Shown: positions 58,537 through 64,000 of the stretch, one piece after another
How positions within the stretch are numbered: position 1 is the first letter of the stretch
How the letters are laid out: each line of letters begins with the position of its first letter
NCBI RefSeq assembly: GCF_002954445.1
Contig: NZ_MQWA01000001.1
Location: 2,814,512 to 2,878,511, forward strand
DNA length: 64,000 bases
Direction: 5' to 3'
Source of the DNA: Rubritalea profundi
Lineage (GTDB): Bacteria; Verrucomicrobiota; Verrucomicrobiia; Verrucomicrobiales; Akkermansiaceae
Made by a program: the position numbers and the translations under genes
Notes under the pieces: model-generated
The model's input: the letters and a program-made list of their open reading frames with translations, nothing else
The model's database searches: none
Told to the model about the DNA's origin: nothing

Positions 58537-58940
58537 AAAAGGAACAGTACCAAAGTCAGTGTCCTAGTTGCTCGTGGATTCTGCATGCTCTGCATGTTCG
58601 CAGTTAAATGATGATGCGCACATTGCTGTTCTTAGTGCGACTGCTGGCGCTTGGTACTTAGTAATAGATGGATTCCTTGGGGGGCGCTTATGGTTGTTTT
58701 GAGCTACTTGAGAGCTCTAGGCCTAGGCATTTTGTTTATGATCCTCTTTTCGTATCTATGACATTTTGAAGCTCATGCAGGAGAAGTGAGAGGGGGCTTG
58801 AAAAGCTTGAGTTTATCTATAGTACTACCTTTTTTTAAATTTTTGTAAAAAAAGTGAAATTATTACGTATAACTAAAAGATAGAGTGTTTTATAAATTTT
58901 CCTCTGGTCATACCGTATTTGAATGTGCTCAAATGCTGTC
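58537..58940. other. Intergenic region with possible small hydrophobic frames
   Basis: About 400 bases after menD without a firm gene. Two short hydrophobic frames follow each other in different phases: MMMRTLLFLVRLLALGT (ATG near 58609) and one containing ALMVVLSYLRALGLGILFMI ending near 58760. They may be remnants of one small membrane protein broken by an indel, or chance. The last 150 bases are AT-rich and probably contain the promoter of the next gene. Confidence 0.35.
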
Positions 58941-59549
58941 ATGAATAAAGTAAACGACATATATGGCCCACTCGCTGTGACTGGCCGCCGTCGTTTTCTT
59001 GGGGCACTGGGTGCATTTGCTGGTACTTGCATGATGTCGATACAAAATGCTAAGGCAGGCTTTTTCTACAGCACCAAGCCGGTAGCTGGAATTCCTCAAG
59101 CATGGGTCAATGAAAAGGGGTCGGATGTATATCGTTATGCCAATTATATCAAAGGCCTACGCCTGAAAAACGTGACGCCTTATATGGTACTAGAGCCACA
59201 TTTTAGAAGTCGTGGTCGTACAAGGAATAGTCTACCTCCTCGCTATATGTGGAGCCGTATTGCTCCGACATTGAGAGTGATTGATGCGATGGCTTCTGGC
59301 ATGAGAGCTCAAGTATCAGAGCTTCTTTCGATTTACCGCAGCCCTACTTACAACCGAGCAGTCCGTGGGCGTAGCCGCTCACAGCACTTGGAGAACCGAG
59401 CTGTAGATGTTCGCTTCAAAGGTGTTTCAGCCTACACAGTTTCAAAGGTCGCACGTAGTATTCGCTCACAGGGCAAATTTGCTGGGGGTGTTGGCCGCTA
59501 TAGTAGCTTCACTCACGTTGACACAAGAGGTCATAATGCCGATTGGTAA
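58941..59549 (+). CDS. Tat-exported M15-like peptidase (DUF882/YcbK type)
   Basis: 202 residues from ATG 58941 (58923 would add six and weaken the signal). The N-terminus carries a twin-arginine signal: TGRRRFLGALGAFAGTCMMS, so the folded protein is exported by Tat. The C-terminal domain has the M15 metal-site pattern SQHLENRAVDVRFKGVSAYT and SFTHVDTRGHNADW (His-x6-Asp and HxDxR), as in YcbK, a peptidoglycan-linked murein-peptidase-like family. LSIYRSPTYNRAVRG is the third block. It probably acts on cell-wall peptides; true activity is unverified. Lone gene on the plus strand. Confidence 0.85.
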   Translation: MNKVNDIYGPLAVTGRRRFLGALGAFAGTCMMSIQNAKAGFFYSTKPVAGIPQAWVNEKGSDVYRYANYIKGLRLKNVTPYMVLEPHFRSRGRTRNSLPPRYMWSRIAPTLRVIDAMASGMRAQVSELLSIYRSPTYNRAVRGRSRSQHLENRAVDVRFKGVSAYTVSKVARSIRSQGKFAGGVGRYSSFTHVDTRGHNADW

Positions 59550-59635: not shown

Positions 59636-59730
59636 TACAGAATTATTGCAGAATTCACAAAATGAATACCTGCTGCAAAAGCTACTCATTCTGTAAATTA
59701 TGAGAAATTCTGCAATCCTGTATAAATTCA
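59636..59730. repeat. Long imperfect palindrome with ACAGAATT-type units
   Basis: Left arm TTTATACAGAATTATTGCAG, AATTCACAAAATGAAT; right arm ATTCTGTAAATTATGAGAA, ATTCTGCAATCCTGTATAAA. The arms pair over some 38 positions with a few mismatches around a spacer of about 20 bases. It lies in a convergent gap and shares its ACAGAATT units with the repeats at 31.9 and 32.9 kb. Could act as a bidirectional terminator. Confidence 0.75.
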
Positions 59731-61455
59731 CAAGTTATTGCTCGGCGGCTCTTCACTTAGTAAGTCACTGACGAACTCCAAGTTGAAATCACTCACTAGA
59801 TCATTTGAGTATCTGTGGCTGGAGCAGTAGACGAAGAGCGCTACACCCAATACGAGTATGAGAAAGCTCTGAGCTCCATGCTTGGGTTTTAGAGATGCGA
59901 AGGCTATATCACTGACCACTGGCAACAAAATAGCTGGAATTATCCAGCGGGCATCATATTGATTCATTCGGATTCTAGTCAAGATGAGTGAACCCATAAT
60001 TAATATGAGCGAAGTCACCAGCAAGCATCCTTGCCATTGAGTTGGCTGAAATAGGAGAAAAGCAGTCGCTAGACAGCTAACAACTAGTAATAGAGTGATT
60101 TCGCTAGCAAAGGGTTTTTCCTCCTCTCGAGTTACACGGATTTTCGCGGCCTTTGCTGCGGCGCGCTGAGCTCGAATACGCTGAGAGTTCCGGAGGCTGA
60201 TTCTCTTTTTCCTCTTTGGCCTAGGAGGCATGGCTTCAGCCACTTGAAATTCCTCTTTAAATTCAGGAATTTGCATTGCTGGGGTCCATTCACCGATCCG
60301 TTGTTGGTAGATAAGATCGTTAGAACGAATAAATCCTTCAGCTATGAGTTCGCAAACTTTGGAGAAGGGAACTGGGCCTTTACGGACATCATGAATGGAA
60401 AAGTACCACATGTCCTGTGGACGAACTTGATGGACACGTTCGGCCATAGGAACCATGTTTTGTGGCGTTGTAGACAGATTCGTTCTTTTGCTTTGTTCAA
60501 ACTCTGCTTGAAATTCTGCCTCCTGCTTAGCCGATAGCTTTAGATTTGCTTTCGTGAGAGTTGAAAGCGAATGCTGCATAGAATCATTTAAGCTACTGTC
60601 ATGGGATATTACCGAGAGAGCTTCTTGCACATCAATATCTTCGAGTTGCATTAAGGCATTGAGTGATTCTCTGCAGCTTTCAATGCGGTCATCTTGCTTG
60701 TACTGGATATGTGACTCAAGCCATTGGCAAAATGAGCCAGGGAGTTCTGGTAAATGCTGACGAATCGGAATAAAGTCATTGCTCATGTGCGACGCCATGA
60801 TCACAACGGGAGAATCACCTTTGAAGGGGTATTGCCCAGTAAGAGCGTAGTAGAATATGCAACCAAGTGAGTAAATGTCAGAGGCTTCGGTGTTGATGTT
60901 GGATTCGATGATCTCTGGTGCAATGAAGTGAATAGAACCAACGATATGCTGTGTGCCACTCTTGCTGCTTGATGACTCGTCATGTGGTGGCGACATACCA
61001 AAATCAATAACTGTCGTCTGGTAATTTGAGCGACTCATCTCAGTGAGCATGATATTAGCCGGCTTTAGGTCGCAGTGTAGAATGCTGTGTTCGTGTGCTG
61101 TGGCGATGGCACTGAGCAACTGCGTCGCGACAAAAAGAAATTGTTGAAGATCGAGAGGCGCTTCTTTGACAACAGTATCGAGGGCATCCCCTTCGATAAG
61201 TTCCATGATGATATCGCCACCATTTTCATTTTCAGTAACATCGTATATCGAGACGATGTTAGGGTGCTTTAGTCCAGCGAGGACTTTAGCCTCCGTCAAA
61301 AGTTGCTCTTTGAGTTCATTTTGGCTAGAGGAACTGACAGTTTTGAGTCGCTTGATGACGATGTCGCGATCCAGCTGGGTGTCACGCGCTTGGTAGACGC
61401 ATCCAAAGCCATCTGAGCCCAATTGTTTGATGATTTGATGTCGCTCTTTGTTCAT
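59728..61455 (-). CDS. Ser/Thr protein kinase with GYF_2 domain and membrane tail
   Basis: 575 residues. Kinase domain 1-270: glycine loop QLGSDGFGCVYQA, Lys35 in DIVIKRL, catalytic loop LHCDLKPANIM (Asp129, Lys131, Asn134; Cys replaces the usual Arg, so activation-loop phosphorylation is probably not required), DFG at 151-153, APE in FIAPEII. A helical linker is followed by a GYF_2 domain at 349-398 (MWYFSIHDVRKGPVPFSKVC, IGEWTP), a basic stretch (PPRPKRKKRISLRNSQRIRA) and four membrane helices at 455-550. Kinase and GYF domain are thus cytoplasmic. Last gene of a cluster of exported unknowns; two other GYF_2 proteins lie at 37-39 kb. Confidence 0.93.
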   Translation of the reverse strand: MNKERHQIIKQLGSDGFGCVYQARDTQLDRDIVIKRLKTVSSSSQNELKEQLLTEAKVLAGLKHPNIVSIYDVTENENGGDIIMELIEGDALDTVVKEAPLDLQQFLFVATQLLSAIATAHEHSILHCDLKPANIMLTEMSRSNYQTTVIDFGMSPPHDESSSSKSGTQHIVGSIHFIAPEIIESNINTEASDIYSLGCIFYYALTGQYPFKGDSPVVIMASHMSNDFIPIRQHLPELPGSFCQWLESHIQYKQDDRIESCRESLNALMQLEDIDVQEALSVISHDSSLNDSMQHSLSTLTKANLKLSAKQEAEFQAEFEQSKRTNLSTTPQNMVPMAERVHQVRPQDMWYFSIHDVRKGPVPFSKVCELIAEGFIRSNDLIYQQRIGEWTPAMQIPEFKEEFQVAEAMPPRPKRKKRISLRNSQRIRAQRAAAKAAKIRVTREEEKPFASEITLLLVVSCLATAFLLFQPTQWQGCLLVTSLILIMGSLILTRIRMNQYDARWIIPAILLPVVSDIAFASLKPKHGAQSFLILVLGVALFVYCSSHRYSNDLVSDFNLEFVSDLLSEEPPSNNL

Positions 61456-61491
61456 TCAATTCTAAAGTGATTGGCTCGTTTCAATGAGCAA

Positions 61492-61929
61492 TTATTGGCG
61501 TGGGGGCAATAAGGGAGTTAAAGACCCAGAACTCATACTTGGGTTGAGAGTTTCAGTCTCTCTCTCAGAGCGAAGAGGGCGAAAACTAGCGCTGTGTGTG
61601 TCCAATCGAAACTGCATGGCATTGAGTTCACGGTTGAGCTCGGATTGCTGACTGTGCATGGTTTCTTGTTGCTCAAGAAGCTTGTTTAGCCTGCTCTCCA
61701 ATTGCGAACTGTTGCCAGCATGAGCAGCGATCATAGATGATTGATCAAATAGCTGGCTCGTCCCGCGTAGGGACTCTGATGAATAATAAGCCCCATCAGT
61801 CTGATGCATCATTGGAGAGTGGACGAGAGTCGTTGGCTGGATCGTACCAAGGCTCATTTTGTGATGGAGCGCAACGCCGAGCGTGATACCCGTGATGCTC
61901 GCACATGCGACAGCTAAAATATGATTCAT
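61492..61929 (-). CDS. Membrane-anchored coiled-coil protein
   Basis: 145 residues. One N-terminal membrane helix (MNHILAVACASITGITLGVA), a low-complexity stretch, then a coiled coil (SRLNKLLEQQETMHSQQSEL and NRELNAMQFRLD). It probably projects into the periplasm. No family recognised. Immediately precedes the kinase gene (36 bases) and follows the next unknown by 15 bases, so it is part of the cluster. Leader contains CTAACAAC one base before ATG. Confidence 0.65.
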   Translation of the reverse strand: MNHILAVACASITGITLGVALHHKMSLGTIQPTTLVHSPMMHQTDGAYYSSESLRGTSQLFDQSSMIAAHAGNSSQLESRLNKLLEQQETMHSQQSELNRELNAMQFRLDTHSASFRPLRSERETETLNPSMSSGSLTPLLPPRQ

Positions 61930-61944
61930 CGTTGTTAGATATCC

Positions 61945-62619
61945 TTATTTTGGGAGTGAATCGACCAGAGCTGAGAGGTTTTCAATACTTTGGTCTAAAG
62001 AGTCTCCCGCTTGTTTCAGGTTATTGGTGGCTGTTTTGAGCCGTGCGGAAACACTATGTTCTTGTTGATACCCGCGTTCAGGTTGGTAGCCTGGTTCCCT
62101 TGCTTGAATGACTTTGTTCGATATTTCAGGGACAAGGGTGTAGGGTGTGATACTCAGCGAGAGAGTTTTCCCAGTGCTCAAATTCACTTCAACTGGATAG
62201 GCTTTATTCTGTGGTGCTGGGATATAGCGCCAGCCTCTTGGAGCCTGTTGCATAGGTTTAGGAGCCCACGGACTTATGAGCTTGAAGCCACTATCTTCAG
62301 AGAGTTTTATTTGCTTGGGTATTTCCACTTTTACGACAACTGGCTCATCTTGCTCTGGGAGCCCCAAATCTTCAGGTTGCTCAGGCAAAACTGGATCTTC
62401 AGGCTGAGCTGGTTGTTCAGGCTTATTGAGCTCGTCAGAAGTTTCATCAAGCTCCGGCTCTTCTAGATTCTGATTGTCAGCTACTTCCTCATCGAGGACT
62501 GGGGGACTAAAATCGGTCTCAACAGGCTCCTCGTCTTCGACAATGATAGCGGTTGGAGCATCTTGAGTGAGACCCGTAAGTGGGAGTGCTAGGAGTATGT
62601 AAAAAGGAAAGTACTTCAT
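61945..62619 (-). CDS. Exported protein with acidic Pro-rich linker
   Basis: 224 residues. Signal peptide MKYFPFYILLALPLTGLTQD; residues 25-100 are a Glu/Asp/Pro-rich spacer with repeated PEQPEDxxLPEQ units; the C-terminal half has a small domain (ISPWAPKPMQQAPRGWRYIP, TPYTLVPEISNKVI) and an end helix (LKTATNNLKQAGDSLDQSIE). No family recognised. Its ATG shares bases with the stop of the upstream gene, so translation is coupled. Confidence 0.65.
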   Translation of the reverse strand: MKYFPFYILLALPLTGLTQDAPTAIIVEDEEPVETDFSPPVLDEEVADNQNLEEPELDETSDELNKPEQPAQPEDPVLPEQPEDLGLPEQDEPVVVKVEIPKQIKLSEDSGFKLISPWAPKPMQQAPRGWRYIPAPQNKAYPVEVNLSTGKTLSLSITPYTLVPEISNKVIQAREPGYQPERGYQQEHSVSARLKTATNNLKQAGDSLDQSIENLSALVDSLPK

Positions 62620-63323
62620 TATTTAGAAAGCTTGATGGTTGATGCGCTATTTTCAGAGAGCATGCTAGGATGGCTAGACGATTTCTGGGGGAGTGAAGGG
62701 CTGTCAGCGCGCAGAGCAGCAATTGGTTGTGCGCTCATAAGCAAGCTGTCCCAGGCCAATTGTATATTTTCACCGTCCTGATGAAGTTTTTTAATTTGTG
62801 ACTGATAAATTTTGAGAGCTCGGAGGACTCGTTGAGCCTCATTAGCCTGCTCAGGTCCAAACCTCAGCCCACGCGTTTTATAAATGACGGGCACTTGAAT
62901 AATAATCCGCTCTGAAGATGAGTTACTCTGAGCTGTGATGACGTGCTGAATACGGTCATTGGTTTCTTCAAAACCCACTAATCCTTCAGTGGAGTCACTC
63001 TTCGGCAGTGGAATGTTGGAACTTTTTTCTGCGGCACTGGTTTGTGACAGTCCGCTGCTTACTGGTGTGTCTCCAGGGAGTCCACCACTGTTAAGTTTTG
63101 TAAAACTATTTTGCTCGGGTGCAGATGGCTTACTTGCTTGGGGGGCTGCTGCGTCTGGTTCTTGTCTGGCACTTTCTCCTGAGCCATCTGGGATGGCACT
63201 CACTATTGTCGGTTTGGTGACGTAGAGCCAGCAAAAGAAAACAGCACTGAGAGTGCTGAAGGTCAGTAAATATTTATAAGTGAGTGTGATTTCACTGCTT
63301 GAGTGTGAAGTGGATGTAGACAT
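62619..63323 (-). CDS. Membrane-anchored protein with Ser/Pro-rich periplasmic linker
   Basis: 234 residues. A membrane helix at about 16-36 (YLLTFSTLSAVFFCWLYV) is followed by a long Ser/Pro/Ala/Gly-rich stretch and a folded part near 130-190 (RIIIQVPVIYKTRGLRFGPE, RVLRALKIYQSQIKKLHQDG). No family recognised. Overlaps the next gene's start (ATGA-type coupling at 62619). The design, a membrane anchor plus variable linker plus small domain, is repeated in its neighbours. Confidence 0.62.
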   Translation of the reverse strand: MSTSTSHSSSEITLTYKYLLTFSTLSAVFFCWLYVTKPTIVSAIPDGSGESARQEPDAAAPQASKPSAPEQNSFTKLNSGGLPGDTPVSSGLSQTSAAEKSSNIPLPKSDSTEGLVGFEETNDRIQHVITAQSNSSSERIIIQVPVIYKTRGLRFGPEQANEAQRVLRALKIYQSQIKKLHQDGENIQLAWDSLLMSAQPIAALRADSPSLPQKSSSHPSMLSENSASTIKLSK

Positions 63324-63421
63324 TTGAATGTGTTTCTAGATGAACTAGTGGGGTATCCAGGGGGACGGGAGAATGGACGGTGCTGGCGAGATCGATTGGC
63401 CGAACGCAGAACGCAATATAT

Positions 63422-63904
63422 TTAGCGTTTTACCTGCCCTAGGGCAAGGCGTTTCGCGTAGGTTATCACGACAGTGTCTGAAATCGGGGGGAACTGTGTG
63501 ATTGTCAGTCGAGCTTGAGTCACACTGAGTTGTTTTACAGTGTGGTTGGTGCTATGACTGGCCTGAATTCCAGGCTTGATTGAGATGTTTCCTTGAGCAT
63601 CTTGCTGAGAAATTCCATCGGCACGATAAATCTGATAACTATGATAGGCGTCCGCCACCTCAGATTGATAAAGCCGAATTTCTTGGCCGTTTGAATAGAC
63701 TCGGTATCGAGTATCTGGAAGAGGTATAGTTGTCGACTTACCCTTGCGTACTCGCACCATGGACTTGACTAAATAGACACCAATCAAGTCAAAACCCTCA
63801 GGCTTTACTGCATCCTCAACCACAAGAGCGACTGAGGGAGACGAATAGAGGGGGAGATTGGCGAGACTTAAAAAAGTAAGCGCTAGAAGACAAAATCGGC
63901 CCAT
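63422..63904 (-). CDS. Exported protein, unknown function
   Basis: 160 residues with a signal peptide (MGRFCLLALTFLSLANLPLY, then SS). The mature protein is beta-rich, with TTIPLPDTRYRVYSNGQEIR, EVADAYHSYQIYRADG and a C-terminal strand VVITYAKRLALG. No family recognised. First complete gene of the kinase cluster; 98 bases separate it from the next gene and 29 bases from the upstream partial gene. Confidence 0.62.
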   Translation of the reverse strand: MGRFCLLALTFLSLANLPLYSSPSVALVVEDAVKPEGFDLIGVYLVKSMVRVRKGKSTTIPLPDTRYRVYSNGQEIRLYQSEVADAYHSYQIYRADGISQQDAQGNISIKPGIQASHSTNHTVKQLSVTQARLTITQFPPISDTVVITYAKRLALGQVKR

Positions 63905-63933
63905 AAAACGTTCTATATACTATCCAATTTGGA

Positions 63934-64000
63934 TTATTTGCCAGCGTCCCACACGCTATTGTCACCAGGAGGCGAGGGGTCGTAATCTCCGCTTAAAACA
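63934..64000 (-). CDS. 3' end of a gene running off the window
   Basis: The minus strand reads VLSGDYDPSPPGDNSVWDAG-K before TAA at 63934-63936. The Gly/Asp/Pro/Asn-rich end recalls the C-terminus of type II secretion pseudopilins and type IV pilin-like proteins of this phylum, but 21 residues are too few for a firm call. It is the probable upstream member of the kinase cluster. Confidence 0.45.
   Translation of the reverse strand, partial: VLSGDYDPSPPGDNSVWDAGK

Follow-up and report, generated by a model that had tools for sequence, protein, structure and literature searches.

At one edge of the window analysed here, a stretch of 64,000 nucleotides from the Rubritalea profundi genome (G000:C1:2814512-2878511), four small genes lead into the gene of a membrane-bound Ser/Thr kinase. 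A sequence-only reading had taken these genes for a single envelope-spanning system under the control of the kinase. The locus thus raises two questions: to which machinery do the small proteins belong, and is the kinase a part of it? The four small exported or anchored proteins, and a kinase with a GYF_2 domain and four membrane segments, were all found where that reading had placed them. In the direction of transcription, and with pilinB as the gene that enters the window from upstream (window coordinate = coordinate in region L002 + 58488), the features are:

63934..64000, reverse strand: 3' end of pilinB, the second pilin gene of the operon, with its stop at 63934
L002 5446-5859, reverse strand: pilinB complete, 137 aa, prepilin-like
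63422..63904, reverse strand: p160, 160 aa, signal-peptide-like start
62619..63323, reverse strand: p234, N-terminal membrane helix, linker, beta hairpin and long helix
61945..62619, reverse strand: p224, signal-peptide-like start, acidic Pro-rich linker, conserved C-terminal domain
61492..61929, reverse strand: p145, N-terminal membrane anchor, then a coiled-coil-like region
59728..61455, reverse strand: Ser/Thr kinase with GYF_2 domain and four membrane segments, 575 aa

The signal-peptide-like starts of p160 and p224 were judged by eye. In p234 a structure model placed a helix at residues 14-36, followed by a disordered linker (about 80 residues rich in P, S, A and G), and a conserved ALRADSPSLP-like motif lies near the C-terminus. 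A plain hydropathy scan of this single sequence stayed below its threshold; across the p234 family, 64 of 64 members have at least one hydrophobic segment. The conserved domain of p224 ends in LxxLP. By hydropathy p145 has a single membrane segment, at its N-terminus, and toward its C-terminus a conserved FRVDTHSESFRPLR-type motif. We infer from these features that p234 and p145 sit in the inner membrane by their anchors and expose their domains to the periplasm, and that p160 and p224 are probably exported. The stop codon of p234 and the start codon of p224 have one base in common (TAATG), and in the R. profundi tail this is the sole pair with a start/stop overlap.

The genes upstream of the window edge, as read in L002, identify the membrane-anchored unknowns as the last members of a type IV pilus-like operon of 15 genes on one strand. 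The gene of which only a pseudopilin-like tail had been visible is that of pilinB, whose N-terminus, GVTLIEISLVIG, is prepilin-like. From 5' to 3' the operon in L002 consists of:

PilT-like ATPase, the first gene, 416 aa: a second T2SSE protein (PF00437, 6.5e-39)
pilinA, 121 aa: PF07963, 7.8e-5, above cut-off
p649: no recognised family
GspM-like protein, 178 aa: weak matches to T2SSM_b and XpsM
p190: frameshifted in this genome (L002 11500-12046)
secretin, 568 aa: PF00263, 1.1e-34, and PF03958, 1.8e-9
p183: no recognised family
GspE/PilB extension ATPase, 564 aa: PF00437, 7.7e-79
GspF/PilC platform protein, 386 aa: PF00482, 1.2e-28
p115: no recognised family
pilinB, 137 aa: N-methylation motif match 0.041, below cut-off, the motif itself being visible
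p160, p234, p224 and p145: the last four genes

The kinase gene follows p145 and lies outside these 15 genes. From its size and place the 416-aa PilT-like protein is the likely retraction ATPase, and with such a protein in the operon the machine is probably retractable. A prepilin peptidase is encoded elsewhere in the R. profundi genome. No Pfam match was obtained with any of 28 members of the p649 family, and PDB sequence searches returned chance matches only for p649 and for p190, for which sequence comparison gave nothing meaningful. The p190 gene is intact in relatives (e.g. L113), and its frameshift could be an assembly error. Genes for an ABC ATPase, a permease and a protein of about 300 aa adjoin the pilus operon at L002 16836-19085, as they do in most related loci.

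The four tail proteins had been described as members of no known family, and this description stands: p160, p234, p224 and p145 gave nothing above cut-off in Pfam or NCBIfam. For p160, p234 and p224 the Pfam scan covered family members; p145 was scanned as the sequence of the window alone and gave just weak coiled-coil matches. PDB sequence searches with p160, p234 and p224 returned chance matches only. Verru_Chthon cassettes are verrucomicrobial pilin-related gene sets that also contain unknown small proteins. In contrast to these, the four small proteins carry no prepilin motif (N_methyl) and matched no NCBIfam model, in a release that we take to contain the Verru_Chthon models. Profile searches with the four likewise matched no type II secretion model, so the concern that they might be ordinary parts of either system was not borne out. 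They may be considered new families by sequence, and a more remote relationship at the level of the fold is possible.

In order to determine how far the tail is conserved, we examined its relatives. Within the family, p160 is present in 67 of 145 genomes and in 9 of 16 genera. The gene order is the same in twenty regions, each at most 20 kb long, except in L041 and L049, which contain the tail only. Since p160 has no stretch conserved enough for a profile scan, the central region of GspE was used as query instead; in named genomes it yielded 80 loci, including some from Luteolibacter, Haloferula, Roseibacillus, Persicirhabdus and Rubritalea marina DSM 17716, again with the order kept. Within the family, GspE orthologues share 69-83% identity, compared with about 35% for the next GspE-like proteins. 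The genes of pilinB, p160, p234 and p145 occur together in 21/21 loci of the first set, which had been selected through a p160 match, and in 54/80 loci of the second. Where they do, they stand in order in 73 of 75. Dozens of Akkermansiaceae genomes repeat the operon order, and the operon is a lineage-specific type IV pilus variant that is widespread in this family.

In relatives, start and stop codons overlap as a rule: at pilinB/p160 in 59/77, at p160/p234 in 33/75, at p234/p224 in 47/59 and at p224/p145 in 48/59, counts that are upper estimates because the nearest in-frame start codon was taken. The proposal that the small genes form a conserved set with overlapping reading frames and membrane or export signals was supported, and the set is tied to a pilus-type machine. 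Among 240 genomes of the order, the GspE orthologue, p160 and p234 mark the identical 29 genomes of family f1 (29/29); the sampled genomes are related by descent, so this match does not represent 29 independent events. Beyond f1, p160 and p234 co-occur with GspE in two f6 genomes (G149 and G152). In f6, p160 follows pilinB, and p234-p224-p145 form a cluster of their own elsewhere in the genome. At L041 and L049 the genes pilinB-p160-p234-p224-p145 lie away from the core, which is encoded elsewhere in the same genomes. These separated arrangements show that the co-occurrence goes beyond what linkage alone explains. They also bear on a passenger view, in which the small genes are envelope genes whose place in the operon is a matter of history alone. 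Their sequence identity of about 30% and their low-complexity linkers would suit passengers, but the exact co-occurrence with the machine in the 29 family genomes, persisting in f6 where the genes are unlinked, and the conserved order and overlaps make this view highly improbable. One genome, G156 (82% complete), has pieces of p234 and no GspE match, which may be due to its incompleteness.

Within the taxonomic order the core machine is found in families f1, f2, f4 and f6, and the class sample added one more family, f45, with GspE only. In f2 and f4 the core is kept, and p160 and p234 were not found in the genomes of these two families in the order sample. We therefore call the tail genes an accessory module. 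The module is not indivisible, since p224 was not found in the Roseibacillus genomes searched. That p160, p234, p224 and p145 are a module of this pilus machine is very probable, and we assign a probability of about 0.7 to the reading that they are an accessory module of the type IV pilus-like machine encoded in the same operon, irrespective of where they dock. As to the locus L106, the core extends up to pilinB with none of the four tail genes behind it. In the f4 loci L141-L144, L130 and L132, the genes behind pilinB are the ABC trio, a divergent PilT-like gene and one for a membrane-anchored protein of about 650 aa, the trio occupying the place of the tail genes and recalling PilGHI of Myxococcus.

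We also considered a role as cargo or surface adaptors, either for all four proteins or just for p160 and p224, which the machine would export or display as tip, adhesin or glycan-binding proteins in place of minor pilins. The operon encodes two prepilin-like proteins only, a minor pilin set was not seen in it, and different genes stand behind pilinB in f4, all of which would fit such a role. An AlphaFold2 model of p160 (mean pLDDT 88) has a small barrel-like domain of 11 strands at residues 37-156, whose best fold match was a chain of a SusCD complex (Z 8.3), followed by barrels of the lipocalin/FABP (fatty-acid-binding) type. However, in this fold search a Z of about 8 is what models that have no true match typically reach, and the assignment of p160 to a fold family or a ligand was rejected because 8.3 is too weak. 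The membrane anchors of p234 and p145 are also a poor fit to secreted cargo. We regard the adaptor role as unlikely. The model of p234 had no structural match in the fold search.

For the accessory module itself we propose that the four proteins would form a subcomplex in the periplasm, with their long flexible linkers and helical segments as bridges. The subcomplex would dock on the platform and the secretin, where it could stabilise or gate the passage of the pilus. The assignment to a periplasmic subcomplex of platform and secretin is tentative, and we place it at somewhat less than even odds.

The kinase gave a different picture. Its residues 8-257 match Pkinase (1.9e-47) and residues 350-399 match GYF_2 (1.6e-9), four hydrophobic segments lie within residues 451-545, and the catalytic motifs HCDLKPAN and DFG are present. 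If the kinase were an integral part of an envelope-spanning signalling complex that it controls, it should accompany the small genes. Its start lies 36 bases behind p145 in the window, and 27-37 bases behind it across three genomes; in the genus sample the full-length kinase-GYF-membrane protein was found in the four machine-bearing genomes and in none of the others. Both results are consistent with such a complex. However, the kinase follows p145 at L002, L033 and L034 only (L113 and L034 being one locus), and in none of the other approximately 70 loci with room for it. Paralogues not linked to the operon occur in G000, G009 and G041, the last of which carries both the operon and an unlinked kinase, and in a kinase tree the operon-linked copies were not resolved as one clade. 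The kinase as a conserved part of the operon was rejected on these grounds, namely linkage in only three distinct genomes and operon-linked copies not resolved as one clade. With linkage in so few genomes, and with the unlinked paralogues, the evidence does not support a kinase-controlled complex in general, and we consider it very unlikely.

The kinase is a neighbour confined to the Rubritalea-like genus rather than a component of the system at large. Of the claim that the small genes and the kinase form one conserved system, the first half holds, the tail from pilinB to p145 being kept as a set in order, and the second half fails, as does the idea that the kinase defines the system. Its distribution over the four machine-bearing genomes of the genus sample leaves room for a Rubritalea-specific role. 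The kinase may regulate the pilus machine in Rubritalea and would be dispensable for the machine elsewhere. The GYF part (residues 312-418) gave a weak NCBIfam match to the gliding-motility protein GltJ, far below cut-off (E 0.042). Two tandem relatives of the kinase lie beside respiratory-chain genes in the genome of the window (L174 7328-11091). Just downstream of the kinase, on the opposite strand at window 58923-59549, is a gene for a peptidase M15/DUF882 protein with a twin-arginine-like start, RRRFLGALG.

We compared the operon with described systems. With the type IVa pilus, e.g. the pil cluster of Myxococcus xanthus, it has in common the extension ATPase, the PilT-like ATPase, the platform protein, prepilins and the secretin, and its GspM/PilO-like protein is in the position of PilO. 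Unlike that cluster, it includes p649, p183 and p115 of no known family, two prepilins only and a new tail module of four families, and p190 resembles PilP/GspC by position and layout only. An ABC transporter set beside the cluster has been suggested for PilGHI in Myxococcus (PMC6060248), and the ABC trio stands here likewise. In common with the type II secretion system are GspE, GspF, the secretin and a GspM-like gene, and pilinB is weakly GspG-like, below cut-off. In contrast to that system, a PilT-like ATPase is present, and neither GspC nor GspH, I, J or K was recognised among the operon proteins scanned.

Within the family, the operon can be compared with MUL2 (Amuc_1099-1102), a type IV pilus-like locus whose conservation in aquatic Akkermansiaceae has been described (PMC13174399). 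MUL2, which lies next to the secretin Amuc_1098, resembles the operon in having a PilM-like or similar-size large protein, two smaller proteins and the secretin. Both are type IV pilus-like and occur in the same family, but the loci are separate: we read MUL2-type loci in two g3 genomes, in two others (L164-L167) and in the genome of the window itself (L170). The secretin is mostly 520-690 aa long in the operon, compared with 856-910 aa at MUL2. Amuc_1098 has a length of 907 aa (PMC4960237); g3 is taken to be Akkermansia from its 907-aa secretin and the neighbours of that gene. An alignment of p649 with the PilM of MUL2, using five MUL2 rows only, gave an hhalign probability of 0.3%. With this value and a separate MUL2-type locus in the same genome, orthology between p649 and the MUL2 PilM, Amuc_1101, was looked for and not found. 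No p649 match was present in G038 or G028, and neither p649 nor a close GspE orthologue was found in the Akkermansia genomes examined. In the window's genome the MUL2-type secretin gene appears to be divided between two overlapping reading frames (L170 7737-8843 and 8825-10300), through either a frameshift or an error in the assembly.

In Akkermansiaceae, type IV pili are being investigated for glycan attachment and uptake (MUL2, PMC13174399). The operon described here stands apart from MUL2 as a second pilus operon; it is common among aquatic members of the family, was not seen in the sampled gut Akkermansia genomes, and adds four protein families without a known relative. A description of it was not found in the open-licence literature searched. 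For cultivable Haloferula, Luteolibacter and Rubritalea it provides a defined gene set with which the role of a second pilus can be probed. The fullest version of the proposal, a Verrucomicrobiales pilus distinct from MUL2 in which a periplasmic subcomplex of four new families alters gating or binding and which the GYF-kinase controls in Rubritalea, is doubtful as a whole. Three MAG records titled Akkermansia muciniphila (L099, L100 and L130) carry the pilus operon, while the g3 sample genomes are without it; these titles may be wrong.
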